In this document: positions 2,263 to 16,852 of the stretch, in pieces
How the letters are laid out: each line of letters begins with the position of its first letter
Numbering within the stretch: position 1 is the stretch's first letter
Made by a program: the position numbers and the translations under genes
Assembly (NCBI GenBank): GCA_028288595.1
Contig: JAQBNK010000130.1
Span: forward strand, 1-41,788
Direction: 5' to 3'
DNA: 41,788 bases
Source of the DNA: Chitinophagaceae bacterium
GTDB taxonomy: Bacteria > Bacteroidota > Bacteroidia > Chitinophagales > Chitinophagaceae
The notes under the pieces: model-generated
Told to the model about the DNA's origin: nothing
The model's input: only the letters and a program-made list of their open reading frames with translations
Database searches by the model: none

Positions 2263-2907
2263 ATGAACTTTAATTTCTTTCGAAATAAAAGGAAAAAATC
2301 TTCACTTACGTTTTTCCTTTCCTTGCAGGATAGACTGGTTCAGCAATTAGATGCTGACCGTTTGACTTGGCAGCAAGCAATTGTGCATGCAGAAAACGAA
2401 TACGGTTACAACAAAGGAGCCTACGCTTTTTTTAATGCTTTTGCTTTTTATAGACTGTCATTTCTTGATATCATTCTTTTATATAAAGCTTTTCATGGTT
2501 CAAAGGAAACGCTTGAAAAAAAATTATATGCAAAGATGCTTGCCCTCCATCTCTATGAATTTATACAGGATATACCATCCATATTTGGTAAACCTTTTGC
2601 TAACGATTTAACTATTCTGCTTAACCATGAACTGGGGGACGAACTAGCTATTATCAAAAGAAATATAAAAGACATCAAATCATCCAGTTTGGGATATCTA
2701 AAGGAAATTAGAAATACGGTAGCTGGCCATAAAGACGCAAATACTTTTAAGCAAATAGAAATAATTGAAAGTATTAATTATGATAAGATTGACGCGATAT
2801 GCTTATGCATCTACGGTATTTATCTGCAGATAAACAAATTTGAAAAAAATATAAGAGATGCGATTAAAGAACAGATTGGTAAAAAAGGAGAAACAAAAAA
2901 TGAGTGA
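2263..2907 (+). CDS. Hypothetical protein with HEPN-like Rx5H motif
   Basis: A 214-aa, largely alpha-helical protein that I do not recognise as a named family. Near residue 150 it carries EIRNTVAGH (R150, N151, H156), which fits the Rx4-6H motif of HEPN domains; these often act as RNases in toxin-antitoxin and antiviral systems. No signal peptide or membrane segment is visible. Its stop lies inside the start of a decayed small gene (ATG at 2900), which in turn overlaps the ATPase gene at 3151, so the three form one overlapping cassette. The cassette is AT-rich compared with its flanks, which suits horizontal transfer. The HEPN assignment rests on one short motif and the helical character, so it is tentative. 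Confidence 0.7.
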   Translation: MNFNFFRNKRKKSSLTFFLSLQDRLVQQLDADRLTWQQAIVHAENEYGYNKGAYAFFNAFAFYRLSFLDIILLYKAFHGSKETLEKKLYAKMLALHLYEFIQDIPSIFGKPFANDLTILLNHELGDELAIIKRNIKDIKSSSLGYLKEIRNTVAGHKDANTFKQIEIIESINYDKIDAICLCIYGIYLQINKFEKNIRDAIKEQIGKKGETKNE

Positions 2908-3164
2908 AGATGATTTTACTTAGCAGGCAATGCTGCGAACATTGAAACGACTGAAGTTAAAACAGAACCAAGGACATAGTCTGTGACAGAGATTCTAACA
3001 TCAATATTTGAAGAAACATTCAAAGGAACATTTTTAGCCATGACAGAAGAAGAACAAAGCATTAATACCTTACAAAAGAACTTGCTGGTTTAGAGAGAGA
3101 CAAAGTTTCTTATATTAATCAGTTAGGGAATATATTAAAACCACAAATCAATGAAACTTTTTGA
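2900..3164 (+). pseudogene. Decayed small coiled-coil protein gene between HEPN-like and ATPase genes
   Basis: A start ATG at 2900 follows a strong AAGGAG site (2885-2890) and overlaps the upstream stop. Its frame reads MSEDDFT and stops at 2921. Shifting by one base at about 2920 opens a second frame (LAGNAANIETTEV...) that stops at TAG 2977-2979 and then continues through VTEILTSIFEETFKGTF and MTEEEQSINTLQK. A second one-base shift at the AAAA run 3074-3077 opens ELAGLERDKVSYINQLGN, which ends at TGA 3162-3164 inside the ATPase gene. Joined, this gives about 87 residues of charged, coiled-coil-like protein with operon-style overlaps at both ends. Two lost bases and one nonsense codon point to a dead gene; sequencing error or recoding is less likely. 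Confidence 0.6.
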
Positions 3165-4098
3165 AATAATAAATAGTTGGTTTGACAGCTCAGAAAAAAG
3201 TGAGCTTGACCATTTCGATTTAGACAAAATACGAAAAATCATAGGTGAAATAAAAGTTGAACCCTTTCTTACTTTTATGCAATCGCAAACCGAAGAATTT
3301 TTACGTAACATATCAATTTCTTCAAAAGAGAGTAAAGGACAGGAACGAAAATTTATTGTAATTAATGGCGTTAGCGGTAGCGGCAAAACAAATTTAGTTT
3401 ATGAATATTTACAGGACTTCCTATTGGCAACTGGAGTTATAAAAGAAAATAAGGTGCCTATTAACAAAATTGCCTGCCACGACATTAATGACTTTGGACT
3501 TCATGGACGAAATATTGACGATGTAATTAATAAAAAAGTAAGTGACAGTAAAGACGGCATTTTAATAATTGACGAATTTACAGTTCGAGACAAAAATGCT
3601 CCGCTAATTGCAGACCTGCTAAAGAAAATATATTTAGATAAAGATTTTCTTTTTACCGCGGTAATTCTTATGGGAGAATTAAAAAGCAATTCTGCCTTCC
3701 TCTGCACTTACAGTCTTGAGAACATTTTCCCTAACAAATTCCGACTAAATTTTTATACCCCAAGTTTCATTCAAATTGCAGAGGTTTTTGAGGCATATTC
3801 TCAAAGAAAAGGCGGTTATATTTTATCGGAAAAAGCAAAAGCAGGCTTAATTTTTTATTTCGGTAAAATTAAAACTATAAAAAAAATCAAGTCGGACCTT
3901 AACAGAAAAGGAACATCAAAATTTTTGTACAGGGAAAGGAATTTCGTTTATACAAGCGAAATGCTTCCCATCTATAAAGACATTGTTGCAATCAAAACAG
4001 ATAACAATATTATGATTGAGCAACTTGACATTCTCAACACAAATTCTTATAAAAAGATGCTTAACGACCTACAACTTTTGGAAAAATACATTAGCTAA
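3151..4098 (+). CDS. P-loop ATPase (AAA-like), unknown function
   Basis: A 315-aa protein with a clear Walker A motif GVSGSGKT (residues 73-80) and Walker B motif GILIIDEF (136-143, acidic pair D141/E142), hence a P-loop NTPase, probably of the AAA+ or STAND-like superfamily. It has about 65 N-terminal residues before the P-loop and a lysine-rich helical C-terminus after residue 220. No membrane segment is seen. It is the last gene of the AT-rich cassette that begins with the HEPN-like protein, and its start overlaps the decayed middle gene by 14 bases. ATPases paired with HEPN proteins are common in defence and abortive-infection loci, but no specific known system is recognised here. Confidence 0.8.
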   Translation: MKLFEIINSWFDSSEKSELDHFDLDKIRKIIGEIKVEPFLTFMQSQTEEFLRNISISSKESKGQERKFIVINGVSGSGKTNLVYEYLQDFLLATGVIKENKVPINKIACHDINDFGLHGRNIDDVINKKVSDSKDGILIIDEFTVRDKNAPLIADLLKKIYLDKDFLFTAVILMGELKSNSAFLCTYSLENIFPNKFRLNFYTPSFIQIAEVFEAYSQRKGGYILSEKAKAGLIFYFGKIKTIKKIKSDLNRKGTSKFLYRERNFVYTSEMLPIYKDIVAIKTDNNIMIEQLDILNTNSYKKMLNDLQLLEKYIS

Positions 4099-4206
4099 TA
4101 TTGGTATTACCGCTACCGGAAGAACGGACAGCCAATTTCAATTTCGCTTTTTATTGTTAACCTGAAATTATTTTTAAATTGAGGAGTTGTTCGCGGCGGA
4201 AAGGTT

Positions 4207-4698
4207 TTATTGCTTTCTTGTTTTACTCACCTTGTGATTTATGCTCCGGTAAATTTGATAAAATTTTGCTTTCTCTCCTGTCGTGATGTACCCGAACCGC
4301 AAAATATGAACGTCTCCTGCTAATATACTTTTTTGATATGCCTGCAATGCGTTAAAAGAAATAACGGTAATCTGTTTAGGAATAAAATTAAGATGCGTTG
4401 TCTTGTCTTGTGAATTGATAAAACATTTTGTGGTGAGTTTTTCGCCTTGCACTAAGCTTTCGACCATGAAGTCGTGAATAGAAATAAAGTCATTGGAGGA
4501 ATTATAAAACCAAAGTGTAAAATCATAATTATAGGCAGCTGAACCCATGTGCGACTTATTCACCGGGTCGATTCGTACCTCCCTGTCGATAATCTTTAAT
4601 TTTCCTTTTTTGGAAAGATTGTTTAACAACCAGCCAAGAATAGTTCCGATGACGGTGGCTATGATGGTAGAAAAAGTTTCAATGAGTCTGGAATCCAT
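4207..4698 (-). CDS. Hypothetical protein with single N-terminal membrane anchor
   Basis: A 163-aa protein with one hydrophobic segment near residues 8-25 (ETFSTIIATVIGTILGWLL), followed by a mainly beta-type soluble domain with no recognised motif. The topology suggests a membrane-anchored protein of small size. It lies downstream of the minus-strand genes ending at 4782 but is separated from them by the strong hairpin at 4749-4783, so it probably has its own transcription. It converges with the ATPase gene at 4098. I cannot assign a function. Confidence 0.7.
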   Translation of the reverse strand: MDSRLIETFSTIIATVIGTILGWLLNNLSKKGKLKIIDREVRIDPVNKSHMGSAAYNYDFTLWFYNSSNDFISIHDFMVESLVQGEKLTTKCFINSQDKTTHLNFIPKQITVISFNALQAYQKSILAGDVHILRFGYITTGEKAKFYQIYRSINHKVSKTRKQ

Positions 4699-4748
4699 TT
4701 AACAAACTGCTTTCAAAATTGTATAAAAACCTCGCCGGATAAAAATAA

Positions 4749-4783
4749 AAAAAGAAAGGAGGATTAAATCCTCCTTTCTTTTT
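4749..4783 (-). terminator. Bidirectional rho-independent terminator
   Basis: A perfect 16-bp stem (4749-4764 with 4768-4783) around a three-base loop, GC-rich in the middle (GGAGGAT/ATCCTCC) and flanked by A and T runs on either side. It begins at the stop codon of the YjzC-like gene (4782-4784), so it most likely ends transcription of that minus-strand operon. The T-run allows it to work in both directions. Confidence 0.85.
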
Positions 4784-5000
4784 AAGCCAGCTGGATCAGT
4801 GTCCACGTTACTGCTTTGCCAGCGTAAGGAGGCATCCTGTTACCCTTGGCTATGGGAGCAGTAGTACTTGGGGTACCTGCTACTTTCCAGACACCACTTT
4901 CGGGACAGTTTTCTCCTGTCTTTGCTGTTCTGCCTACGGCCATAGTAGAAATTTTTTTTGCCTCCAGTGATAAGAGTGAAGACGATCTCTTTGAACTCAT
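4782..5000 (-). CDS. Small YjzC-like protein
   Basis: A 72-aa protein whose core, GRTAKTGENCPESGVWKVAG followed by TTAPIAKGNRMPPY, resembles the small YjzC-type proteins (motif GxxxPxSGxW, a GN/GD-phiPP segment and a C-terminal TWxLI). The family is common but has no settled function. The gene lies 29 bases downstream of the membrane HEPN-like gene on the same strand, and its stop is embedded in the terminator at 4749-4783, so it appears to be the last gene of that operon. A plus-strand frame over the same bases has no such family resemblance and was rejected. Confidence 0.7.
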   Translation of the reverse strand: MSSKRSSSLLSLEAKKISTMAVGRTAKTGENCPESGVWKVAGTPSTTAPIAKGNRMPPYAGKAVTWTLIQLA

Positions 5001-5029
5001 TTTTCGCAGGAGTTCTGTTCTGCGGTTAG

Positions 5030-5653
5030 CTAATTCAAAGGCTTTTGTATAGCAAAAAAATAGTCCTCTGCCTTTTCTCTTGCTATGCGGTAAAGCGATA
5101 AGGTGATACTGATACCGGCTATAAAGGAAGCTGCAATCAGCGAACGCTTTTTCCTTACCGCGAGTTTATGAGCCTCCTCGTTTCTGATTTCCTTAATAAT
5201 TTTCAGGTGGTGAAAATCCTCTTTGCAGATAGTGCCGGTTTTAAGTGCGTAATCGATGTAATCATGGAAGGTTGCATTCCTGCTTTTCGCCTTCATTTCA
5301 TTAATGAAAGCCTCATTTTTTTCAAATAGTTCACGCAAGAGACTCTCAATTATTTTAGCAATAACCATAACAGCCCGGCTGTCCTGTTTGATTTCAATTA
5401 AATCTGAAATTTCTTTTAGTTCTTTGGCAATATCACTGTCAAGGTTAGGTGATGACGCAATCAGTAAACGAATCTGGTTTTTAATTTGGTCATACAGATC
5501 ATGGTTTGCTTTCAAGGCCGCGTCAAGCACACCAATACGTTTTGCTTTTATATAGTTTTGTCCAACCAGGTAAATCAGTAACAGCACCGTAAGCGGTATA
5601 AGTACCTGCGGAATTTCATTTTTCTTCATAAGGTTAACGGTTGACGGAGACAC
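5030..5653 (-). CDS. Membrane protein with central HEPN/DUF4145-like domain
   Basis: A protein of about 200 aa with two membrane segments (around residues 17-31 and 171-190) flanking a helical cytoplasmic region. Just before the second segment is IKEIRNEEAHKLAV (R157, N158, H162), an Rx4H motif like that of HEPN/DUF4145 domains. The longer start at 5653 overlaps the DUF1883 gene by 20 bases; the internal ATG at 5629 (MKKNEIPQ) lies just after that gene's stop and is equally plausible. A membrane-tethered HEPN-like protein beside DUF1883, WYL and nuclease genes suggests a stress or defence role, but the domain call rests on one motif. It sits between the DUF1883 gene and the YjzC-like gene, same strand, tight spacing. 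Confidence 0.75.
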   Translation of the reverse strand: MSPSTVNLMKKNEIPQVLIPLTVLLLIYLVGQNYIKAKRIGVLDAALKANHDLYDQIKNQIRLLIASSPNLDSDIAKELKEISDLIEIKQDSRAVMVIAKIIESLLRELFEKNEAFINEMKAKSRNATFHDYIDYALKTGTICKEDFHHLKIIKEIRNEEAHKLAVRKKRSLIAASFIAGISITLSLYRIAREKAEDYFFAIQKPLN

Positions 5654-5894
5654 TGGCTTTTACTATACCGGGGTACCCCCCGAGATTAATCACTACATGC
5701 CACTGCCCGGCTGAAGGTGCTGCGACGCGAAAGCGAGACACTTTAGCAAGCCCGCCAAAATACTGGTAACGACGTCCGGCCTTGTAGTTACTGTAATTTG
5801 AACTATCAAGTAACAGAACGTTGGCCTGTTTATCGAGATTCACTATTATTATATCTCCACTCGCTAAACTTAGATCATAATGTAAGTATTCCAT
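5634..5894 (-). CDS. DUF1883 domain-containing protein
   Basis: An 86-aa protein covering a whole DUF1883 domain: an N-terminal MEYLHYDLSLASGD, a central LLLDSSNYSNYKAG and YQYFGGLAK, and a C-terminal GQWHVVINLGG. These match the conserved pattern I know for the family (HYDL...LDSSN..NYK.G....YYGG...GHWHVV.DLGG). Its function is unsettled; in some bacteria the domain is fused to TIR domains, which hints at immunity. It lies downstream of the WYL regulator across a 66-base gap that contains a perfect inverted repeat just before this start codon, so it may have its own promoter. It overlaps the membrane HEPN-like gene. Confidence 0.85.
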   Translation of the reverse strand: MEYLHYDLSLASGDIIIVNLDKQANVLLLDSSNYSNYKAGRRYQYFGGLAKVSRFRVAAPSAGQWHVVINLGGYPGIVKASVSVNR

Positions 5895-5895
5895 G

Positions 5896-5919
5896 TGTAT
5901 TTCTTATTGCTGAAATACA
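5896..5919. promoter_or_regulatory. Inverted repeat upstream of the DUF1883 start
   Basis: TGTATTTC (5896-5903) and GAAATACA (5912-5919) form a perfect 8-bp inverted repeat with an 8-base spacer, ending one base before the DUF1883 start codon. It could be an operator or a hairpin in the leader that limits translation. The half-site GAAATAC also occurs in the two repeated sites at 9011-9024 and 9421-9432. Confidence 0.45.
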
Positions 5920-5960
5920 AAGGAAAGAGGCGCCGGCGAAATCTATTTTCGCTTTAGAAA

Positions 5961-6971
5961 TTATTTTTTTCCGTAAAGATTTACCCCCTTTCTTAAACTA
6001 TTTTTGATGCTTTCCTTAACGTGTTGGGGGGAGAGAACGGTAACGTCGGGAGTCTTACCTAAAATATATTCATATAATTCGTAAGACGGAATAACCGAAA
6101 TAGAAATATCTGTATAATCGGGCTGTTGCTTGATTAACTTCTTGCTTTTATGAATAGGCAGCGAAAGGATATAAGGAGCTTCATTTTTAGTGAACCTCAA
6201 TACAACTTCCTCAACCGGCGCATCCGGCCGCGTTATACCAAATGAATGGGTAAAATATTTTTCATTATCGAATTCAATCGTTCTTGAAAAATTTTGATCG
6301 AGTATTACGGGCTCCGATACACGGTCCAGCGCAAATGTGGTGATCTTGTTTTCACCCCTTTCAACCCCAATAACATACCACCGGTTTTTATATTCCTTCA
6401 GCATATAGGGAGCAAAAACCCGCTTTTTTATTTCACCACTGCTAAATTTCAGGTAGTTAAACTCCATGTATTTTTTTTCATCAATTGCTTCAATAATATC
6501 ACTTAAGTATTCCGCCCCGTGAGGGTTTGGAATAGTGTCTGTCTGTATAATAAAATCAGCATCGCGGTTCTCCTGGAACCGGTTTCGGATATTTACACCC
6601 TCGACAATTTTATTGATACCGCTTGAGAAAGAACTGAAGATACTATACTCGCTATACATCTTTAAGCACGCCGCATAGAACCGCATCGCCTTGATCTCTT
6701 CTTCCTTGAGCCTGAAAGTAGTAATGGAAAAAGCGGGATCGGTATAGCTGTATTGATGGGTTTTCTTGTCTTCATCTATTGGTGCATCAAAACCTGCGGG
6801 GTAAGGACGCATCATAGTTTCGATATCCAATTGAATGCTCCTTAATGTAATATTAACATCGAGTTCCCGCTGAATGATCTCTCTGAGTGTTTGGGTAGAA
6901 ACCGACTTCCAACGGCGGAGTGACCGGTCAATAATAAGATACCTTAAGCCAGGATTTTTAAACTTTGACAT
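5961..6971 (-). CDS. WYL domain transcriptional regulator
   Basis: A 336-aa regulator of the WYL family. Residues 1-65 form a winged-helix DNA-binding domain of the kind seen in these regulators, residues 150-220 the WYL domain with RWYVIGVE (197-204) and the downstream arginine of FALDRV, and the rest a C-terminal extension. WYL proteins sense nucleic-acid or nucleotide ligands and are frequent regulators of bacterial defence islands (BREX, CBASS and others). The gene begins only 6 bases after the stop of the DUF2779 nuclease gene, so the two are co-transcribed. It is the obvious candidate to bind the repeated motif in the divergent control region at 8934-9513, though this is inference. Confidence 0.9.
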   Translation of the reverse strand: MSKFKNPGLRYLIIDRSLRRWKSVSTQTLREIIQRELDVNITLRSIQLDIETMMRPYPAGFDAPIDEDKKTHQYSYTDPAFSITTFRLKEEEIKAMRFYAACLKMYSEYSIFSSFSSGINKIVEGVNIRNRFQENRDADFIIQTDTIPNPHGAEYLSDIIEAIDEKKYMEFNYLKFSSGEIKKRVFAPYMLKEYKNRWYVIGVERGENKITTFALDRVSEPVILDQNFSRTIEFDNEKYFTHSFGITRPDAPVEEVVLRFTKNEAPYILSLPIHKSKKLIKQQPDYTDISISVIPSYELYEYILGKTPDVTVLSPQHVKESIKNSLRKGVNLYGKK

Positions 6972-6977
6972 GAAAAT

Positions 6978-8933
6978 TTATTTACACCATTCCCTCCACG
7001 CTTCATAAATCATGACCATCGCAAGGGTATCCAGTTCACAATAGCGAAGCAGTGCACTCATAATTCTTTCCCGCTCGGTTTCATTCATATCGCTAAACTG
7101 CATGCGCGCATAAGCAATCATAGCGGCACCGCCGTCTGCGATGCCTGATTCTTCATCAGTAAGGACTTCATCAAGGGATTCGTTATCGATACCATTATGA
7201 ATGCACGGGAGAAGTTTATAAGGGTTAATTATATGGCCGGTCTCATCGCGTTTGATCCACGTTTCAGCTTTAAAATTTTTGCTCGGTATTTCATTTCCGT
7301 AGACAGGGCTGCTGTATTTTTCCTGGAGGTAATCACTGCAGGAAAGAATAGCAGGAAGGACGAACTTGATGGAGTTTGATCCCTTTGTTAGTGGGTGGTA
7401 ATAATAACGCAGTACCATTTCCCTTAAATCAACCATGTCTCTTTCTCCGCGCCACTGATCGGAACTGGAACTCGAGGAGTGGGTAATAGTTTTAATCCAT
7501 TCGCATAATTCATGTTTGTCCGTTTCAGCCGAATCCTGCAACTGCCGGTAGATGACATTCAAAATAGTATTCTCGTGTACGGCATACCTGAATATCGTTC
7601 CGTCGTCTCCCGAGAGTGATTCTTTTAATGCGCGGACAAATTCGAAATTCGGGAAAACACCGCGCTGTGTATTGATCCATTCATGGGCATGAACAACGCC
7701 GCCATTTTCGTCAACTGTATGATGAGAAAACTGGAAGGCAGTTTGTTCATAAGGCCTTTTCCCTGCATTAAATGGAATGGCCACAGCCGTAGTTTCGAAG
7801 TCTATGAAATGAAGGGGGAACTTCCACTGCTTCATTTCTGCAGCGAGTCCTTCAATGTCGAGAAAATGATTGGGATCATTATCACGGCATTTTTGAATTT
7901 GAAGTTCCTGCCTGTCAATCCTGCTTAAGTACGGAACGGAATCCTTTTTACCTTTTGTTTTCGGTTCAAGATCGGCTCGCTCCAGGTCCTTTAATAAGTA
8001 ACGGGCCGCCTTGACATATTCAGGTTTTTTGCGAAAATCCCATAGCTCCAGGACGAGAGGCTGGCTGAGTATTTCGTCGGTTACTCCCGCCTTTTTCCAG
8101 CATTCATGAAAACCGGATTTCTTTCCTTCCGGTTTTTGATCTGCAGGTAATTTAAACTCGCACTTCGTGCACTGACCACCAAGTGTTGCATCTATAAAAT
8201 GATCTACGGCATATTTTGCTGAAAAGAATTTTACCTGGTCTTCGAAGGAACCAAGAGCTGTGGGTTCGTTCCATATAAGTTCGACTTCTTTGTCAACGCA
8301 AAATGCGGTTAATAATGGTGTTCCAAGATTATTATAGTCTCCTTTTTCAGAGCGTTTCACCTGGTAGCGGCCTTGATCCTCGTAGACAAAGAAGAGTTGG
8401 TTCAGTCCGTCTACTGATGCCGTTTTTGATTTGTCCGACAAAAAAAGATATGCCTCAATCTCGAATTGCGGGTAAGACTTTATAATAACGTGCTTTTGAA
8501 AAGCAACATCATCGAGGTAAGGTCGCCATTTGGACTTGATTCCATTTTTTGTAGTGAAGGTTTCTTCCCCATCGATTGACTTTGCTTTTACTTCCAGCAA
8601 TTTTATTTTGTTACCCTCCTTTACGATGATATCGGCCCGGATAAAAAGATCTTCATAGCGGAAAGCACCTTCATAAATGATCACGTTTTCTTCTTTCAAC
8701 AAGGCCGCTGTTTGCTGGAGGGCTGTTTCATAATCCAGGCTTTCAATGTTGACGCCCCCCGGGTAATAAAGTTTCGCCAGTTCGCCAACCTGGAACCCGC
8801 CTTCAGCAAGTGCCATCAAAAATTCGTTATCAAGCTTTGAATCGTAATAAATATCTTTTTTACCGGTGTAAAAAAGCTTGGCTGAGCATTCGACTGCCAG
8901 TTTATAACGTGATTTAGTAAGTACGCGGGTCAT
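6978..8933 (-). CDS. DUF2779 protein: Cas4-like PD-(D/E)XK nuclease fused to RNase H-like exonuclease domain
   Basis: A 651-aa protein with two parts. The N-terminal half looks like a Cas4/RecB-type nuclease: an early cysteine (C16, in AVECSAKLFY), D101 in IRADIIVKEG, E114-x-K116 in LLEVKAKS, then GQCTKCEF (C255, C258) and HECW (C278), which together would make a four-cysteine iron-sulfur site. The C-terminal half is the DUF2779 domain, an RNase H-fold exonuclease with HFIDFE (D378, E380) and later acidic residues near a YCELDTLAM segment. Such proteins probably degrade or trim DNA. It is the first gene of a minus-strand operon with the WYL regulator. A candidate promoter (TTG at 9010-9008, TTATTTTG at 8988-8981) precedes it. 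Confidence 0.88.
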   Translation of the reverse strand: MTRVLTKSRYKLAVECSAKLFYTGKKDIYYDSKLDNEFLMALAEGGFQVGELAKLYYPGGVNIESLDYETALQQTAALLKEENVIIYEGAFRYEDLFIRADIIVKEGNKIKLLEVKAKSIDGEETFTTKNGIKSKWRPYLDDVAFQKHVIIKSYPQFEIEAYLFLSDKSKTASVDGLNQLFFVYEDQGRYQVKRSEKGDYNNLGTPLLTAFCVDKEVELIWNEPTALGSFEDQVKFFSAKYAVDHFIDATLGGQCTKCEFKLPADQKPEGKKSGFHECWKKAGVTDEILSQPLVLELWDFRKKPEYVKAARYLLKDLERADLEPKTKGKKDSVPYLSRIDRQELQIQKCRDNDPNHFLDIEGLAAEMKQWKFPLHFIDFETTAVAIPFNAGKRPYEQTAFQFSHHTVDENGGVVHAHEWINTQRGVFPNFEFVRALKESLSGDDGTIFRYAVHENTILNVIYRQLQDSAETDKHELCEWIKTITHSSSSSSDQWRGERDMVDLREMVLRYYYHPLTKGSNSIKFVLPAILSCSDYLQEKYSSPVYGNEIPSKNFKAETWIKRDETGHIINPYKLLPCIHNGIDNESLDEVLTDEESGIADGGAAMIAYARMQFSDMNETERERIMSALLRYCELDTLAMVMIYEAWREWCK

Positions 8934-9513
8934 TGTCAGTTATTATAGTGGTACAACCGGGGTTGTGATGCGGATACGGGCAAAATAAGTCTTCAGGACT
9001 TTAAAAACAACCGTAGAAATACGGGAATTTGCTTAAATCTTTCTTAAAGGCATGCCTCTTTGCTGGCCAATGCACCTAGTCCTGCGTAATTGAATTACCA
9101 AGTAGTGATAATTTTATGCTTATTGGGCTTTATTAGATAACCCCTTCGTCTTTTCTTAACCCTGATGATGCAATAACTATATTTAAATGTTACGCTAACA
9201 TTTTCTATACTGATTGCCGTAGCTACACCTTTTTAAGTTGGTAAGCGGTACGGGCGTATCTTAAAATAAGGGGTTTAAAGAGAGAAGGCAACATTGTAAG
9301 GGAAGAAAGATAGACACACGAAAAACTAGGAAACAAAGAAATTTTTTCGAGCAAAATGCTCCGGCCAATAAAATAACGAGGCCTCGGGGAATATATTGAA
9401 TGGTTTTGGGAAATAAATAGGTAGAAATACGGTATTTATTAAAAAATAAATTATTTATACTTGCTGCCAGGCGAAGGCCGGGTAATTTCCCTTTAACATT
9501 CACGATTGCAACC
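8934..9513. promoter_or_regulatory. Divergent control region between the nuclease and 910-aa operons
   Basis: A 580-bp gap with no supported gene; the only frame here (9261-9515, minus) looks spurious. It holds two copies of GTAGAAATACGG (9013-9024 and 9421-9432), each about 80 bp upstream of one start codon. The first lies in the dyad CCGTA-GAAA-TACGG; the second is flanked by AATAAATA (9412-9419) and TATTTATT (9433-9440). Candidate -7 elements are TTATTTTG (8988-8981, minus) and TATACTTG (9456-9463, plus), 22 and 23 bases from the nearest repeat. A 10-bp palindrome, CGAGGCCTCG, lies at 9377-9386. Confidence 0.55.
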
Positions 9514-12246
9514 ATGATTGATCCTGATATTTATTGTTCGTTAACACTACATATTGCGCTGGCCACCACTCCTCAAAAACAGGAAAAAGAATTCGACAAA
9601 AGCGTACGGGAATCCTATTTTGAACGATATAGAAAAAATATCGGTTCCTATTGTAATGACAAATTTAATGCAGGCTCAGCGCCAAAAGGATACGAAACCG
9701 AGACACCCACACTTTATAATCCATTGCGCTATCATTTACTGGGAAACTATGACATGGCTTACATTTCCCTGATTGATAATTTTAAATTTGCGCAAAAATT
9801 ATTTGAGCCGCAGGTCTACAGTACCGAAAAGGCAACTCTTTTTGGACCACACAGTTTTCAATGCCTGACAGGACTTGCGCAAAGTAAAACAGATGACCTT
9901 CACCAATTTTTCCATAATCATTTAAAGCCAGGGGGTAAACGGGAATATTTTTTAGCTATTTGCAATCTGAAATTAAACAATGGGTTCTTAATAGGTGCGG
10001 GGAAGAAATACTCCGACGCCGTAATTAAGAAAGTTGGAGAATTAGTCACCAAATTTAATGCCTGCGAAACAACAAAAACATTTCAAAAAACTGATTTCCT
10101 TTTACTGCAGTCTTTTTCCTGGTTTGAAATTTCGCTGCTCTTATTTACAGACGACCCGGAAAGTATTTCTTCAATTTTGAAAGAGTTAAGAGGGCTTACG
10201 ATTGTTGATCTGCACGAGGCTGACCTGATTATCGAAGATTCATTGTATAAAGCATTTTTTGCAAAAGAAGAAATAGGTGACCTATCAAAAATTAATGTGT
10301 TTTCAGATACCCACACGTATTTTGGGTTAAATTCTGATTTGGTTTTTGGAAGCGAAGCCGAACCCTTTGTATCGGATTTTCTTTCAAAGGATATTAAATT
10401 AAGATCCGATATCGAATGCCAGGTCAAGCCTGGCCATATGCACTTGCTACGGCAATTTCTTGAACAGCAGAATGTAAAACTGTTTGATCTGAATCAGCGT
10501 CTGCTTGTGGCGGGAAAAAGCGACTACTTCATTGTGAAAGATTCACAAAAAGCGAATAATAATCTGAGGTTGCTTTGGCTGGCAACAGCGGAAGATGGAA
10601 ACATCTATAATCACGTAAGAAAAATTAAAACTCAAATTCAATTTGATGGACAACATCCTTACCACAATCCCGGTGATAGAGACGACCGAAAAGTATTTAA
10701 TCTGGCCTCCTCACTTGGTTACTTGAGTATTCCTGTTTCTAACATAACTGTTTTGGAAAAGAATTTAAAGGCACTGAAGATAGCCAGACCTATCCGTTCC
10801 AAGATTCTAAAATTGTTCTCAAATTATAACAATGGGATTCAGGACGTCATACTATTTCCCTTTTTTCTGGATTTCAAAATTTTCATGGATGAACTTGAGG
10901 AGATGATTAATTACGAATATAGAATCTGGAAGGAAAATACCGGCGAGCCCCAAGTACATACACTTGAAACTGCTCTGATGGAACGAATTAAAATATTTCA
11001 GGAAGGTTATAATATACGGATGTTGAATTGTTATCAGTTTGAAGATATCACAGATTTTGATCTCGATTTTAATTCTTCTATCCAGCAATTATTAAGCGTT
11101 TACAGTACAATGGCATTCGAACTTGGAAATGCGTTTTTCACAAAGAAATATTGGTACGGTCCAATTATACAGCTAAACTTAAAAGAAACGATTGCCAACT
11201 ACAATTCCATTAACTACTATATCCATGACCTTACTTCACCAGAGTTTGTGTTTGCTACCATCATAAAAGAAATTTTGAACTTCTTTTATCTTGATGAAAG
11301 AAAAAAAGAAATGCAGGAATTGCTTGATGAACACCAGCAAAATGTCAAATTGCTTTCGGAATCCGATCCGTATTTATGGGAAATGATTGAATTAGAGTTA
11401 ATTGACCTGCAGTATTATTTAGTGGATACTATGCGGTTTATTATAAGTTTCAATTTCGACTTTGAACTCTTTTACTACTGGTTCTGGACATACAACTTTC
11501 AAAATTCATCTCTCTATAATAAAACAGGTGGAATGAATGAAATCCATTTTAAAAAAGAACTGTTCCGGATTTTATTCATTGGTAAATTGCTTGGATTTGA
11601 TACCGAAAATCTAAAATGTCCTTTACCAGAAATTTTTACTTTTTGGGACCGGCATTTTAAAACCATTTCAAAACAAGTAAATCGTTATCATGATTTTTTG
11701 AAAGAAAACGATATACTAAGAAAGCTTTTGGGTTTCCTGTTTAAGTTTCTCGACAAAACAATTGGCAGGATGGGCAATGATTATCGGAATGTTCCATCTA
11801 AATTATCCGATAATATTGCCAAGGTTATTCAACAGCTAAGCAATGAAGGGATAATATTGACTACCCAGGTTGTAAATTTCTTGTTTTCAAAAGCTTTATT
11901 CTGTCAGGACCTGGCGGACAAAACCAATAAATATAACGTCGACAACTCATCACTTTTCTATTTTCAATGTTTCATGTATTATTATCTCGATAACATTTAT
12001 AAAGCTAATAATAAAACTATAGCATTGCTTCGGCGTAACTGGCTAACGGGTCAGCCACTTAAATGCTTTTTACAGGAACAGGCAGAGCATCTCTATGTTG
12101 TTGATCAGACCGGGGGCCTTTTCTTTGATGATTTAAATAATTTGAACATTTACTTCCGCCAATCTGCAGCAATGCTTGATTGGCTTTGGAATTATTCCCT
12201 CAAACACAAAAAAATATTTATAGTCGAGACCTATGGAAGACAATAA
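9514..12246 (+). CDS. Large hypothetical protein of unrecognised family
   Basis: A 910-aa protein that I do not recognise. It has no signal peptide and no clear membrane segment, so it is probably cytoplasmic. No Walker, nuclease or TIR-type motif is evident by eye. The N-terminal 130 residues include a patch YHLLGNYDMAYISLIDNF, and the C-terminal half (from about residue 450) is helical and rich in aromatic residues (for example FDFELFYYWFWTYNF). Its last 14 bases overlap the start of the phosphoesterase gene, so the two are translationally coupled and probably act together. Its promoter region is shared with the nuclease/WYL operon. Candidate roles are a sensor or scaffold for the phosphoesterase; this is inference from context only. 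Confidence 0.8.
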   Translation: MIDPDIYCSLTLHIALATTPQKQEKEFDKSVRESYFERYRKNIGSYCNDKFNAGSAPKGYETETPTLYNPLRYHLLGNYDMAYISLIDNFKFAQKLFEPQVYSTEKATLFGPHSFQCLTGLAQSKTDDLHQFFHNHLKPGGKREYFLAICNLKLNNGFLIGAGKKYSDAVIKKVGELVTKFNACETTKTFQKTDFLLLQSFSWFEISLLLFTDDPESISSILKELRGLTIVDLHEADLIIEDSLYKAFFAKEEIGDLSKINVFSDTHTYFGLNSDLVFGSEAEPFVSDFLSKDIKLRSDIECQVKPGHMHLLRQFLEQQNVKLFDLNQRLLVAGKSDYFIVKDSQKANNNLRLLWLATAEDGNIYNHVRKIKTQIQFDGQHPYHNPGDRDDRKVFNLASSLGYLSIPVSNITVLEKNLKALKIARPIRSKILKLFSNYNNGIQDVILFPFFLDFKIFMDELEEMINYEYRIWKENTGEPQVHTLETALMERIKIFQEGYNIRMLNCYQFEDITDFDLDFNSSIQQLLSVYSTMAFELGNAFFTKKYWYGPIIQLNLKETIANYNSINYYIHDLTSPEFVFATIIKEILNFFYLDERKKEMQELLDEHQQNVKLLSESDPYLWEMIELELIDLQYYLVDTMRFIISFNFDFELFYYWFWTYNFQNSSLYNKTGGMNEIHFKKELFRILFIGKLLGFDTENLKCPLPEIFTFWDRHFKTISKQVNRYHDFLKENDILRKLLGFLFKFLDKTIGRMGNDYRNVPSKLSDNIAKVIQQLSNEGIILTTQVVNFLFSKALFCQDLADKTNKYNVDNSSLFYFQCFMYYYLDNIYKANNKTIALLRRNWLTGQPLKCFLQEQAEHLYVVDQTGGLFFDDLNNLNIYFRQSAAMLDWLWNYSLKHKKIFIVETYGRQ

Positions 12247-13921
12247 GATTAAGATACTATGGCTTACAGATATTCATTTTTCGGCCGAATATTCGGCGAT
12301 AAAAGGTGAACTACAATCATATTTAGATTATTTTTTTATTAAGGTTGAGCAAGAGGAAAATATTCGCCCCTTTGATTACATCTTTGTTACGGGCGACTTG
12401 GCTCAGGCAGGAACAAAAAAAGACTATGACGAACTATGGAAACGCATTTTTGAACCATTAACCACCATTTTTAAAAATAGGGGAACTCCGCCTCCAAAAA
12501 TTATTACCATTCCTGGAAATCATGATGTGAATTGGGATGAGTCACCATTCTTAACAGAATATTTAAATAACCAAATGCCGGGCTTTAGTGAGCAGTCGAG
12601 AAATGATTTTTTGAAAGTTAATTTTGAAAATTTTAAAAAGCTTTTTGCTGATTATTCATTTTTTGTCAACAATACAGCAGCTTTTTCTTTGCCTCATTTA
12701 CAGGTTTCAGAACAATATGCAAGTCATCGGTTATTTGGCTACGTCGTCGATTCTGATAAGGGTCTTATTATTATACTTATTAACTCCGCTTGGTATTCCC
12801 TCGGGAATCAATTTAACAAAATGCTGGTAGACAAATTCCAGTCTGATGCATGTGCAAAAGGAGAAGAACCGGATCTGAACGACCTGTTGAAGTTTAAAGA
12901 TTTGATTTCAGAATATAACAGTCAAATTACAGGTACGCCTTTAGCGGAAATAAAGGAAATGCAGGAACTTTTTTCAAAGTATGCTGATTTTGTAGTTGTC
13001 ACTTGCATGCATCATCCCTTAAACTGGTTGGATTGGAACGAGTACTATTCATATGACAATAGCACTAAAAACGCCGCGGGTATAGTTACCGAAATTATCG
13101 ATCATAGTGACCTCCTGCTTACAGGGCATGAGCATGTTCCGGTAAATTTTTCTCCGGAAAAAATATTTAAAGACACAATATTGTTAAAGGGGGGTTGTTT
13201 TCTTTTTGATAACCAGCATAAGAAAGTGACGCTAAAACATAACTGGTTTTCAGTTCTCGAAATAGATTCCATTAAGGGAAATGCAAAAGAGTCCCGATAT
13301 CTTTTTGAGAAACAGGGCTGGATGAGTAAAACTCAATATCTGCGGTTTTCAAAAAAAAACGATAAGTATCCTCTGACTATGGCCAGGCGAGAGGATGTTC
13401 TAAATAAATTAGCTCGCTTCTGCTCCTCTGAAAAGCTAATCAAATATTTAAAAGAGTGGAGTGTTTGTGAAGCCGTACAGGCATCCGACCTTGTAGTTCA
13501 ACCAGAGCATTTTGACTTTTGTGAGGTCTTTCAATATCGAAAAAAAGGTCTTTGTGAATGGTATTTGATAGCCAAACAACCGAACTTTTATGAGCAGATA
13601 GATACCGGGTCCTTCTTGAAGTACATAGACGATTTGCTGGCCACCGAACCGGTGCAACGTACGGTTATCCGCTTCCTGGTACCGGACATCCATGTAGATG
13701 ACCATTCAGCTGAGCTGTATAAGGATGGTCAAAAGGATAGGTATATTTGTCTTGAAAAAATTGCTTCAAGGGCTGACAGGTTGTTCGATGCCTTTAGGCA
13801 TAATTTTTTCATAAGGTTCGAAGATAATCCGGCAATGCACGACGTCTTCAAAAAAGTACAGGATTTGTGTTTTGTCAATCATATTATTCCTTACTGGGTC
13901 TTGGAAAGAAATGCAAGGTAA
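12233..13921 (+). CDS. Calcineurin-like metallophosphoesterase with C-terminal extension
   Basis: A 562-aa protein whose first 310 residues carry the full metallophosphoesterase signature: TDIHF (D13, H15), GDLAQAG (D55), PGNHD (N96, H97, D98), CMHHPLNW (H260, H261) and GHEHVP (H299, H301). It would hydrolyse phosphoesters with two metal ions; the substrate (cyclic nucleotide, nucleic acid end or phosphoprotein) cannot be told. Residues 375-562 form a separate domain that I do not recognise. It overlaps the 910-aa gene by 14 bases and is followed, after 175 bases, by a small gene on the same strand. The pairing with a large unknown protein is the most unusual gene arrangement in the window. 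Confidence 0.9.
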   Translation: MEDNKIKILWLTDIHFSAEYSAIKGELQSYLDYFFIKVEQEENIRPFDYIFVTGDLAQAGTKKDYDELWKRIFEPLTTIFKNRGTPPPKIITIPGNHDVNWDESPFLTEYLNNQMPGFSEQSRNDFLKVNFENFKKLFADYSFFVNNTAAFSLPHLQVSEQYASHRLFGYVVDSDKGLIIILINSAWYSLGNQFNKMLVDKFQSDACAKGEEPDLNDLLKFKDLISEYNSQITGTPLAEIKEMQELFSKYADFVVVTCMHHPLNWLDWNEYYSYDNSTKNAAGIVTEIIDHSDLLLTGHEHVPVNFSPEKIFKDTILLKGGCFLFDNQHKKVTLKHNWFSVLEIDSIKGNAKESRYLFEKQGWMSKTQYLRFSKKNDKYPLTMARREDVLNKLARFCSSEKLIKYLKEWSVCEAVQASDLVVQPEHFDFCEVFQYRKKGLCEWYLIAKQPNFYEQIDTGSFLKYIDDLLATEPVQRTVIRFLVPDIHVDDHSAELYKDGQKDRYICLEKIASRADRLFDAFRHNFFIRFEDNPAMHDVFKKVQDLCFVNHIIPYWVLERNAR

Positions 13922-14096
13922 ATTTGGTTAATAATTTTTTTATGTTATTTTTAACGCTTATTACAAAAAAAATCGACGCTTTGGGTGAAATTCTTCTGGC
14001 TTTTTACTCATTATCTTGGCTCGAGCTTAACAATGGCTTCAGTAATTTTATCCTCCGATCCGCCCCTGCTAATCTTCTTACTTTAAATTCCAACAT

Positions 14097-14522
14097 ATGC
14101 AAGTTAATTTCGTAAATAGTATGGATCTGGATCCCGTATTTAGAAAGTTAGTTGTTGCCTACCAGCATTCTTCGCTTAATTTAAATTCTTCGTATGAGGA
14201 ACAACATGAGAAAGCAGAAAAATTTGTTGCAGGATTAGAAGATTCAGAGAAAAATCATCTTTTATCTGAAGGGGCTATAAATATCGTTGAACTTTCATTT
14301 AGCGATGAATTGTCACCTGAGGAAAAATTCTATTATACTATAGCTTTTCGAAACTTTTATGAGACTGTGGTAAACGTCATAGCAGGTTATCAGCCGGCTT
14401 TCCAGGACTTTGAAGGATTTGAAAGGCAGGCCTCTCCACCTCTCGAAGCTTACCAATATATTGGACATAATAAACTTCAGATCAAAGAGGGTGTCCGAAG
14501 TTATTCGCTATTATTTGAGTAG
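14097..14522 (+). CDS. Small acidic hypothetical protein
   Basis: A 141-aa acidic protein with no recognised domain. The first ATG (14097) gives MQVNFVNS; an internal ATG at 14121 (MDLDPVFRK) is also plausible. Segments such as NSSYEEQHEKAEKFVAG and SDELSPEEKFYYTIAF suggest an all-helical soluble fold. It lies 175 bases after the phosphoesterase gene and just before a strong terminator, so it may be the last gene of that operon. The intervening bases hold only a frame (13867-14115) that overlaps both neighbours and lacks support. Confidence 0.65.
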   Translation: MQVNFVNSMDLDPVFRKLVVAYQHSSLNLNSSYEEQHEKAEKFVAGLEDSEKNHLLSEGAINIVELSFSDELSPEEKFYYTIAFRNFYETVVNVIAGYQPAFQDFEGFERQASPPLEAYQYIGHNKLQIKEGVRSYSLLFE

Positions 14523-15255: not shown

Positions 15256-15302
15256 TTGATTACAATAAACTAAATTAGTATATTTGTTTACTATAGTAAA
15301 CA
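15256..15302 (+). promoter_or_regulatory. hipBA promoter and palindromic operator
   Basis: A near-ideal Bacteroidota promoter: TTG at 15256-15258, then 20 bases, then TATATTTG at 15279-15286 (consensus TAnnTTTG). The perfect 18-bp palindrome TGTTTACTATAGTAAACA at 15285-15302 overlaps the end of the -7 element and stops two bases before the antitoxin ATG. This is where a HipB-type dimer would bind to repress its own operon. Confidence 0.75.
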
Positions 15303-15304
15303 TT

Positions 15305-15616
15305 ATGAATGACAGGGCAATTGTAATATTACCGCGCGTGCAGTCAGTCTTAGACCAGTTAGGCGAACAGATTAAGTTAGCCAGGTTAAGGCGAAAACTA
15401 ACGGCCCAACAGGTTGCTGAGCGGGCAGGTATCAACCGTACAACCTTATGGAATATTGAAAAAGGGGCAGCAAAAGTTACAATGGCAGCTTTTGCGCAGG
15501 TGCTGTTTGTTTTGGGAATGGAAAAAGATTTACTCAAATTGGCGGCCGACGATGAGCTGGGTAGAAGAATCCAGGATTCAGGATTGATTATTAAAAAAAG
15601 AGGACCTAAAAAATAA
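15305..15616 (+). CDS. hipB: HipB-like antitoxin, XRE-type HTH
   Basis: A protein of 103 aa from the ATG at 15305 (MNDRAIVILP); the longer TTG frame from 15284 would start inside the promoter and operator, so the ATG is preferred. It carries a Cro/C1-type helix-turn-helix (LGEQIKLARLRRKLTAQQV through GINRTTLWNIEKG) and a basic tail. Such antitoxins bind and neutralise HipA-type kinases and repress their shared promoter; the 18-bp palindrome at 15285-15302 is the likely site. The hipA-like gene starts 3 bases after this stop, so the pair is one operon. Confidence 0.88.
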   Translation: MNDRAIVILPRVQSVLDQLGEQIKLARLRRKLTAQQVAERAGINRTTLWNIEKGAAKVTMAAFAQVLFVLGMEKDLLKLAADDELGRRIQDSGLIIKKRGPKK

Positions 15617-15619
15617 GTT

Positions 15620-16852
15620 ATGTTGATCTTGGTATATGCAGACTGGCATGAGCTGGGCGGACCGGTTTTAATGGGTGAACTAAATGTTGACCACATAAAA
15701 GGACGGGAGGTCTTTTCTTTTGCCTATGATAAAAAATGGTTGAAGTCTAAACACGTGCAGACGATTGATCCCGACCTGCAATTATACAGTGGTCCCCAAT
15801 ATCTTTCAGCGGATAAAAAGAATTTCAGCGTCTTTCTCGACTCATCGCCGGACCGCTGGGGTCGTGTGCTGATGGATCGAAGAGAAGCTTTGATGGCGAA
15901 ACAGGAAACAAGAAAACCAGGAAACCTTTTTGAAGAAGATTATTTGCTCGGTGTTTTTGACGCACACCGTATGGGTGCACTTCGGTTTAAAAGAGACCCT
16001 CAGGGAGATTTTTTAAACAATAATAAAAGCCATTCTGCTCCGCCCTGGGCCACACTACGTGAACTGGAAAATGCAAGCATTCAATTGGAACAGGGTCTTT
16101 TGAAAGACATCGAATCGCTAAAATGGATTAATATGTTATTGGCACCCGGTGCTTCACTCGGAGGAGCAAGGCCGAAAGCAGGTGTGCTGGATCCCCTGGG
16201 CAATTTATGGATAGCGAAATTTCCGAGCGTGAATGACAAAATAAATGTAGGTGCCTGGGAAATGGTAGCACACAGGCTTGCACTAAAAAGCGGTATTCAA
16301 ATCGCTGAGGCAAGCCTCAAAAAATTTAATACAACACATCATAGTTTTTTATCAAAACGGTTTGACCGTATTGGTGAGCAACGGATTCATTTTGCTTCTG
16401 CCATGACTTTACTTGGACACAATGACGGTGCGGATGGCGTTTCTTATTTGGATATAGCGGCTTTTACCATGCAACACGGTGCACAGGTACAGGCTGATCT
16501 GGAAGAACTCTGGCTCAGGATTGTCTTTAATATCGCAATAAAAAATACAGATGATCATTTACGAAACCATGGTTTCATATTAACAACGAGCGGATGGAAA
16601 CTCTCTCCTGCTTATGATATCAATCCTGTCTATCACGGAAAAGGGTTAACACTTAATATTTCACAAACCGATAATGCCCTGGATTTTGACCTGGCACTTT
16701 CTGTTATTAAATATTTCCGAATCCCACTGCAAAAAGCAAAGAAGATTATCGAACAGGTAAAAAACTCGGTTACGGCCTGGAATGAAGCTGCAAATGAATT
16801 TAAGATCCCAGTCAAAGAAATTGAATTAATGAGTGCTGCATTTGAGTCATGA
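15620..16852 (+). CDS. hipA: HipA-like serine/threonine kinase toxin
   Basis: A 410-aa HipA-family kinase, close to the usual length of about 420-440. An N-terminal HipA_N-like domain (around 20-120) includes LDSSPDRWGR; the kinase core includes GASLGGARPKA (178-187, the Ser/Gly-rich nucleotide loop), the lysine of LWIAKF (K200), the catalytic IKNTDDHLRNHGF (N309, D311, D312, H313, N316) and AYDINP (D333, metal binding). Known HipA kinases phosphorylate tRNA synthetases and halt translation, causing persistence. All key residues look intact. It follows the antitoxin gene by 3 bases. It sits at the downstream edge of the presumed defence region. Confidence 0.92.
   Translation: MLILVYADWHELGGPVLMGELNVDHIKGREVFSFAYDKKWLKSKHVQTIDPDLQLYSGPQYLSADKKNFSVFLDSSPDRWGRVLMDRREALMAKQETRKPGNLFEEDYLLGVFDAHRMGALRFKRDPQGDFLNNNKSHSAPPWATLRELENASIQLEQGLLKDIESLKWINMLLAPGASLGGARPKAGVLDPLGNLWIAKFPSVNDKINVGAWEMVAHRLALKSGIQIAEASLKKFNTTHHSFLSKRFDRIGEQRIHFASAMTLLGHNDGADGVSYLDIAAFTMQHGAQVQADLEELWLRIVFNIAIKNTDDHLRNHGFILTTSGWKLSPAYDINPVYHGKGLTLNISQTDNALDFDLALSVIKYFRIPLQKAKKIIEQVKNSVTAWNEAANEFKIPVKEIELMSAAFES

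Follow-up and report, generated by a model that had tools for sequence, protein, structure and literature searches.

The locus studied here raises the question of whether two operons that point away from each other, and that have the same short motif in front of them, also answer to the same regulator. The window, by which we mean the whole stretch of 41,788 nucleotides analysed from a Chitinophagaceae genome, has an AT-rich gap of 580 bp between a minus-strand operon, which includes a DUF2779 gene and a gene for a WYL-WCX transcription factor, and a plus-strand operon, with genes for a 910-aa protein and a calcineurin-like phosphoesterase (Table 1). The first-pass annotation had taken the motif, and its equal spacing from two promoters, as the mark of one regulator acting on both operons, perhaps the WYL protein. 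The comparisons of related loci described below partly support one regulator for both operons, with the neighbouring WYL protein as the candidate.

Table 1. Genes and predicted regulatory features on both sides of the divergent gap (window coordinates).
Feature	Coordinates	Strand	Evidence or remark
DUF2779 protein, 651 aa, first gene of the minus operon (the predicted nuclease of the first-pass annotation)	6978..8933	-	PF11074 E=3.1e-21
WYL-WCX transcription factor, 336 aa, proposed binder of W1 and W2	5961..6971	-	PF13280 E=9e-15, PF25583 E=3.4e-8
DUF1883 protein, downstream cargo	5634..5894	-	
207-aa protein, downstream cargo	5030..5653	-	weak DUF4145 match below cut-off
910-aa protein, first gene of the plus operon	9514..12246	+	no family above cut-off
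Calcineurin-like phosphoesterase, 562 aa	12233..13921	+	PF00149
W1 dyad CCGTA-GAAA-TACGG	9011..9024	-	towards DUF2779 reads CCGTATTTCTACGG; then TTG; TATTTTG after 23 nt
W1 overlapping 13-bp core AAATACGGGAATT	9017..9029	+	one mismatch to AAAYACSSKRTTT
W1 TTG abutting the dyad, candidate -33 element	9008..9010	-	sequence
Candidate -7 element TATTTTG, DUF2779-WYL operon	8981..8987	-	predicted start near 8975
W2 imperfect dyad AGGTA-GAAA-TACGG, AGGTAGAAATACGG	9419..9432	+	23 nt before TATACTTG
W2 overlapping perfect palindrome AAATAC-G-GTATTT	9425..9437	+	
Candidate -7 element TATACTTG, 910-aa operon	9456..9463	+	predicted start near 9468

The motif, GTAGAAATACGG, is present exactly at 9013-9024 (site W1) and 9421-9432 (site W2), where the first-pass annotation had placed it. 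Both copies are on the plus strand, 408 bp apart, with an interval of 396 bp between them. The reported distance of about 80 bp from each start codon also holds, with 79 bases between the 12-mer and the DUF2779 start (8933) on one side and 81 bases up to the start of the 910-aa gene (9514) on the other. One copy aims away from its gene and the other towards its gene, and the two opposite-facing copies are comparable because the core is a dyad. No TTG follows the imperfect W2 dyad; the TTG at W1 is a candidate -33 element. The genome (4,139,020 bases, 4.14 Mb) has one further exact copy of the 12-mer, inside a 509-aa open frame that by eye we take to be carB-like. The related sequences inside genes, which had been mentioned as a caution, do exist and differ from the motif by one mismatch each (2708-2719 and 30396-30407). 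The middle of the gap also contains an unexplained palindrome with 8-bp arms, AAATGTTACGCTAACATTT, at 9185-9203.

The -7 consensus is TAnnTTTG at -12 to -5, according to the accessible text of PMC9723704. The spacing to this element had been given as 22 bases on the minus side and 23 on the plus side. Counted from the 12-mer itself, there are 24 bases to TTATTTTG and 23 to TATACTTG; the figure for the plus side stands, while the 22 of the minus side is a count from the 14-bp dyad. With TATTTTG taken as the minus element, the distance from the end of the dyad to the -7 element is exactly 23 nt on either side, and the equal spacing is recovered once the motif is redefined as the dyad, not for the 12-mer.

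The genus is represented by one genome. Named relatives from Mucilaginibacter and Adhaeribacter, together with the promoter type, point to Bacteroidota. The search for relatives of the WYL protein covered first 147 and later 394 genomes of the family (10 matched at 1e-40 and 5 at 1e-50), 395 genomes of the phylum (3 at 1e-45) and, with the WYL protein of locus L126 as query, 348 genomes of the order (11 at 1e-55); these samples overlap, and the genome under study is counted in each. A plasmid search returned one record, with 34 % identity. The closest WYL proteins found are those of L126 (47 %), L014 (43 %), L127 (41 %), L092 (40 %), L093 (37 %) and L128 (36 %). The gene order DUF2779-WYL of the window is kept in L014 and in L127, whose DUF2779 and WYL proteins have 59 % and 41 % identity to those of the window. 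In L126, the WYL gene is found without DUF2779 and is divergent from unrelated genes.

The gene content of these operons is as follows. L014 encodes DUF2779, WYL, an HNH protein, a cyclic-oligonucleotide cyclase and TIR-STING, that is, a CBASS. L127 has ubiquitin-like DUF2604, CEHH metal-binding, JAB and E2-E1 proteins, with matches to BilC and BilD, and L126 has HNH, E2-E1 and JAB proteins. L092, where the promoter is without the site, has a type IIG restriction enzyme, DUF2779, WYL, a phospholipase, a cyclase and an E2 protein. The immune cargo of these WYL-type operons is swapped from one locus to another (CBASS with TIR-STING, CBASS with phospholipase, and two ubiquitin-like systems). Co-location of WYL genes with CBASS in soil genomes is described in the accessible part of PMC10924106.

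Conservation of the motif at related loci had been proposed as a test, and it was seen at the three closest WYL relatives found (47, 43 and 41 %), where a related site stands before the operons containing them; it was not seen at the more distant WYL genes examined, nor at seven relatives of the 910-aa gene. The related site occurs twice in the divergent gap of L126, where the two copies face two divergent operons as in the window, and this recurrence is what favours one regulator for both operons. The L126 gap (7964-8144, 181 bp) has AAAACACGGTAT at 8027 and, inverted, at 8067. It matches the window sites at 13/14, 14/16, 15/18 and 16/20 bases (P 0.0015, 0.005, 0.003 and 0.0055; 2000 shuffles each) and ties for the best score among 186 real gaps, the gap tied with it matching the AT-rich flank only, without the ACGG core. 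Independently of the window match, the site element forms a 12-bp inverted repeat in this gap (P=0.002, 5000 shuffles). The gap of L127 has AAATACGGGGTTT and that of L014 AAACACCCTGTTT; compared alone with the window sites, L127 gives P values of 0.084, 0.096 and 0.01, and L014 is not significant (P 0.35, 0.35 and 0.19). The joint match of the relatives to the window sites has P values of 0.037, 0/300 and 0.017 at lengths 14, 16 and 18 and is not significant at length 12 (P=0.13); when the gap is taken as a whole, its most conserved stretch fails to reach significance at every length.

When the six promoters (W1, W2, the two of L126, L127 and L014) were aligned, an overlapping core of 13 bp emerged, AAAYACSSKRTTT. 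All four gaps have an exact copy, at W2 in the window, at one of the L126 sites, and in L127 and L014; the remaining sites have one mismatch (W1) and two (the second L126 site). In 303 control gaps (73,580 bp, both strands), which include the sample of this genome, other gaps of L126, L127 and L014 and gaps of distant WYL loci, there are one exact and six one-mismatch cores, and a genome sample of 302,767 bp has no exact and 13 one-mismatch cores. The sole exact control match, AAATACCGGATTT, lies in gap L018 7598-7941, just downstream of a distant WYL gene. Because the core pattern was drawn from the same sequences on which it is tested, a leave-one-out analysis was run, in which each locus was dropped from the consensus and the expected density was taken from the genome sample, which is mostly coding. 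The best matches have one mismatch in the window and in L126, and two in L127 and L014, with 0.002, 0.001, 0.060 and 0.024 expected per gap, respectively; in this analysis, L127 does not reach significance alone.

Among the WYL proteins examined with at most 40 % identity, the site was not found. The gaps of L128, L092, L093 and L015 (30-40 % identity) have no match to the window sites; L128, L093 and L015 have no core within two mismatches and L092 has one site with two. Nine relatives have no match to the 12-mer within one mismatch; L020 has a match with two, 259 bp upstream. At ten loci with 33-38 % identity to the L126 WYL protein (one of them, L139, is the L015 gene again), no site scores like the six.

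Relatives of the 910-aa protein were found in seven further genomes among 298 searched in the order, plus Mucilaginibacter pedocola. None of the eight neighbourhoods (L032-L039) gave a WYL gene, and L038, at a contig end, gave no match at all; the phosphoesterase adjoins the 910-aa gene in five of the eight (L033-L036 and L039). Within 300 bp upstream of the 910-aa relatives, none of seven has the 12-mer within three mismatches, from which it appears that W2 goes with the WYL neighbour and not with the 910-aa gene. The core genes of the two operons also occur apart, so that inheritance as a single unit does not by itself account for the shared site.

Read towards the gene, and counted on predicted rather than mapped promoters, the 14-bp dyad lies 23 nt from the -7-like element at W1, W2, the WYL side of L126 (L126A), L127 and L014, and 22 nt at the other side of L126 (L126B), the site whose core has two mismatches. 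L127 reaches 23 nt only via a second dyad, which overlaps a first one lying 34 nt from the element, and L126A has a second -7 candidate at 16 nt. The -7 element is a full match at W1 and L014 and matches in 5/6 letters at the other four promoters; the chance of a -7-like element is about 0.055 per slot of three positions, as estimated from 113 real upstream pieces. In 16 operon leaders near WYL/DUF2779 genes, 5-bp arms stand at that place only in W1 and L014. Among the strict -7 elements of 302 genes, 3/93 other elements have 5-bp dyad arms there, so that P is about 0.03 for L014 alone. Distances taken from the centre of the 13-bp core form two classes, 25 (W2 and L014) and 35-36 (W1, both L126 sites and L127), which are one helical turn apart; either the 14-bp dyad or the overlapping core may be the binding unit.

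The best explanation of these observations, and in our view a probable one, is that the WYL-WCX protein encoded at 5961-6971 has its operators at W1 and W2, with control of both operons and activation somewhat favoured. The recurrence of a related site, in a matching position, next to the nearest relatives of this regulator makes the motif look like the docking site of a protein encoded in one of the operons. A WYL dimer would bind W1 and W2 just upstream of -33 and would control the DUF2779-WYL operon, hence its own gene, as well as the divergent 910-aa/phosphoesterase operon. By contact with RNA polymerase, the protein may then activate transcription in response to DNA damage, phage infection or a similar signal.

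The window protein has both the WYL and the WCX domain, which places it among the WYL-domain transcription factors. Its predicted model has middling confidence (mean pLDDT 69.6), with helices at 7-20, 26-37 and 43-54 and strands at 65-68 and 73-76 in the N-terminal part; a Pfam scan gave no HTH match. A profile search of solved structures listed chains of DriD first and PafBC next, with CapW and BrxR chains lower, and Foldseek with the model gave the same order, PafBC being the second protein. The Foldseek alignment with DriD covers the whole length, with poor superposition (TM about 0.47, rmsd about 23 A).

The known WYL systems are compared here from the accessible parts of their reports. 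DriD of Caulobacter resembles the window protein in its WYL-WCX architecture, its similar length, a fixed distance from site to core promoter and a divergent operon as target; its sites lie at one fixed distance from -10, overlap -35 and activate the operon divergent from driD, whose own gene is not controlled (PMC12340889). In the window, by contrast, the dyad ends before the expected -33, the site also fronts the WYL operon, and the relatives are in immune operons. The constant distance typical of DriD and PafBC is found in 6/6 predicted promoters of this set (22-23 nt, one via the second dyad). PafBC is likewise a WYL activator, of damage genes, but it is a PafB/PafC heterodimer with a regulon of more than 150 genes, whereas the window motif has no genome-wide enrichment. 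SiwR of mycobacteria is a WYL activator of adjacent genes with a 19-bp imperfect palindrome, which unlike the window sites lies between -35 and -10 (PMC10693628).

Within the reading that the WYL protein binds these sites, activation appears somewhat more likely than repression, because the sites keep a constant phase relative to the -7 element and the protein is related to DriD and PafBC. The position of the site is only a hint to the sign of control, because the activator SiwR binds between -35 and -10. Repression of both operons, with the same binding step and release on infection, is a possible reading that we hold with considerable doubt. In its favour, BrxR and CapW, both WYL regulators of defence operons, repress, as stated in the available text of PMC9122601 and PMC9122588, and at W1, L126B and L127 a TTG directly abuts the dyad, so that WYL binding could exclude sigma. 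CapW is like the window protein in having a palindromic site in a shared promoter region, and BrxR in having two boxes in one island. However, CapW palindromes, of 19-24 bp, overlap -10 (PMC9122588), and BrxR uses 11-bp inverted repeats with a 5-bp spacer, the first box lying downstream of the predicted -10 (PMC9122601); the window-type sites are upstream of -33, with dyads that end 22-23 nt before the predicted -7 element, and they differ in layout from the BrxR boxes. Repression also has no need of fixed spacing, and the nearest solved structures, DriD and PafBC, are those of activators, CapW being lower in both structure searches. Encoding together with CBASS, as for CapW, is seen in the relatives L014 and L092; among the ten window proteins scanned (2263-14522), there is no CBASS and no BREX gene.

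A different view, which we consider unlikely, assigns the sites to some other regulator of the host lineage and takes the WYL neighbourhood as incidental. This view draws on two sites elsewhere in the genome. The first, C52 (L076, about 1465-1515), has the same layout, with CCGTATTTATACGC, TTG, TATCTTG 23 nt after the dyad and the perfect core AAATACCGTATTT; the ORF that it precedes is lipoprotein-like, has 279 aa and belongs to no Pfam family, and the contig measures about 3.4 kb. It was found among 30 of the 42 CCGTRTTTNNMC loci (the remaining 12 include three in the window contig); the ORF caller placed three of the 30 in intergenic positions, and C52 is the one intergenic locus with a -7 element at the right spacing, which L162 also has, inside a 121-aa ORF. 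The second, C56 (L078/L171, around 1501), is a perfect intergenic core, AAATACGGTATTT, between what we take by eye to be a gene for an XRE-type regulator and a gene resembling a C39-type peptidase/thioredoxin protein; the remaining exact cores elsewhere in the genome are coding. Each of the two may be a target in trans or may serve a different factor, and the look-alike before an unrelated gene could be either a third target or a warning. Against another regulator stand the exact core in each of the four gaps of the closest WYL genes, compared with one in 303 control gaps, and the WYL gene itself, the only regulator identified as common to the four loci among the genes examined there. The motif is also not enriched in this genome: GTANNNNTACGGT has 20 matches, compared with 30 for the reversed control, AAAYACGGTATTTA with one mismatch allowed has nine, compared with six, and CCGTRTTTNNMC has 42, compared with 40. 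A large regulon is rejected on the same counts.

It is also conceivable, at a low probability, that the 12-mer is a chance repeat of the AT-rich gap. Exact direct repeats of at least 12 bases appear in 3.1 % of 3000 dinucleotide shuffles of the gap (P=0.031) and in 4/25 divergent gaps taken from 344,555 bases of the genome, the W1/W2 gap included, and the repeat by itself is weak evidence. The geometry is less expected by chance: when the sequence behind the motifs was replaced by Markov sequence, a -7-like element was at identical spacing on both sides in 0.8 % of the trials, and within 1 nt in 2 %. The recurrence and phasing of the site at the relatives also argue against chance. That the 12-bp direct repeats enclose an RNA feature or what is left of an element would fit their separation but is highly improbable, given that 8900-9550 has no Rfam match up to E=1, that the longest exact inverted repeat of the gap has 9 bp, and that the site is single in L127 and L014 and inverted in L126.

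The two divergent gene sets under the proposed WYL control are probably linked to antiviral defence. The DUF2779 family is described as predicted 3'-5' exonucleases in the accessible text of PMC3985635. The cargo of the minus operon consists of the DUF1883 and 207-aa proteins, so that for this operon a defence role would be by association only. On the plus strand, the phosphoesterase is a distant relative of the antiphage models DS8 (NF053861) and DS9 (NF053862), far below their cut-offs, and a literature search for DS-9 found nothing. The predicted fold of the 910-aa protein (mean pLDDT 68.5) has no match at E<=0.001, so that no function is claimed for it; the two-gene unit of the 910-aa protein and phosphoesterase is a candidate defence system. 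Elsewhere in the window, a weak AbiU2-HEPN-like protein (below cut-off) followed by an AAA ATPase (2263-4098) is perhaps another defence pair, and an XRE regulator with a HipA-like protein (15284-16852) forms what by eye we take to be a toxin-antitoxin-like pair.

WYL control of defence operons is already known. In the literature accessible to our search, with subscription journals largely outside it, we found no report of an operator of the W1/W2 type or of one WYL protein facing two unrelated divergent defence operons, and the pairing of DUF2779 with WYL was not found in the available texts that mention DUF2779. As a tentative and rather doubtful generalization, a Bacteroidota lineage of WYL activators, often with DUF2779, may carry a fixed cassette (dyad, 23 nt, -7 element) that plugs CBASS, ubiquitin-like and 910-aa/phosphoesterase operons into one signal; here it would have captured an unrelated neighbouring operon via a second cassette, and possibly the lipoprotein gene in trans. 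Little is known of how the defence genes of an island are switched jointly. If the proposed WYL control is true, a single WYL protein would place two unrelated operons under the same signal by means of a promoter arrangement that is predictable from sequence, the 910-aa/phosphoesterase pair would be a candidate defence system with a known switch, and the phylum would gain a DriD-like rule of activation.
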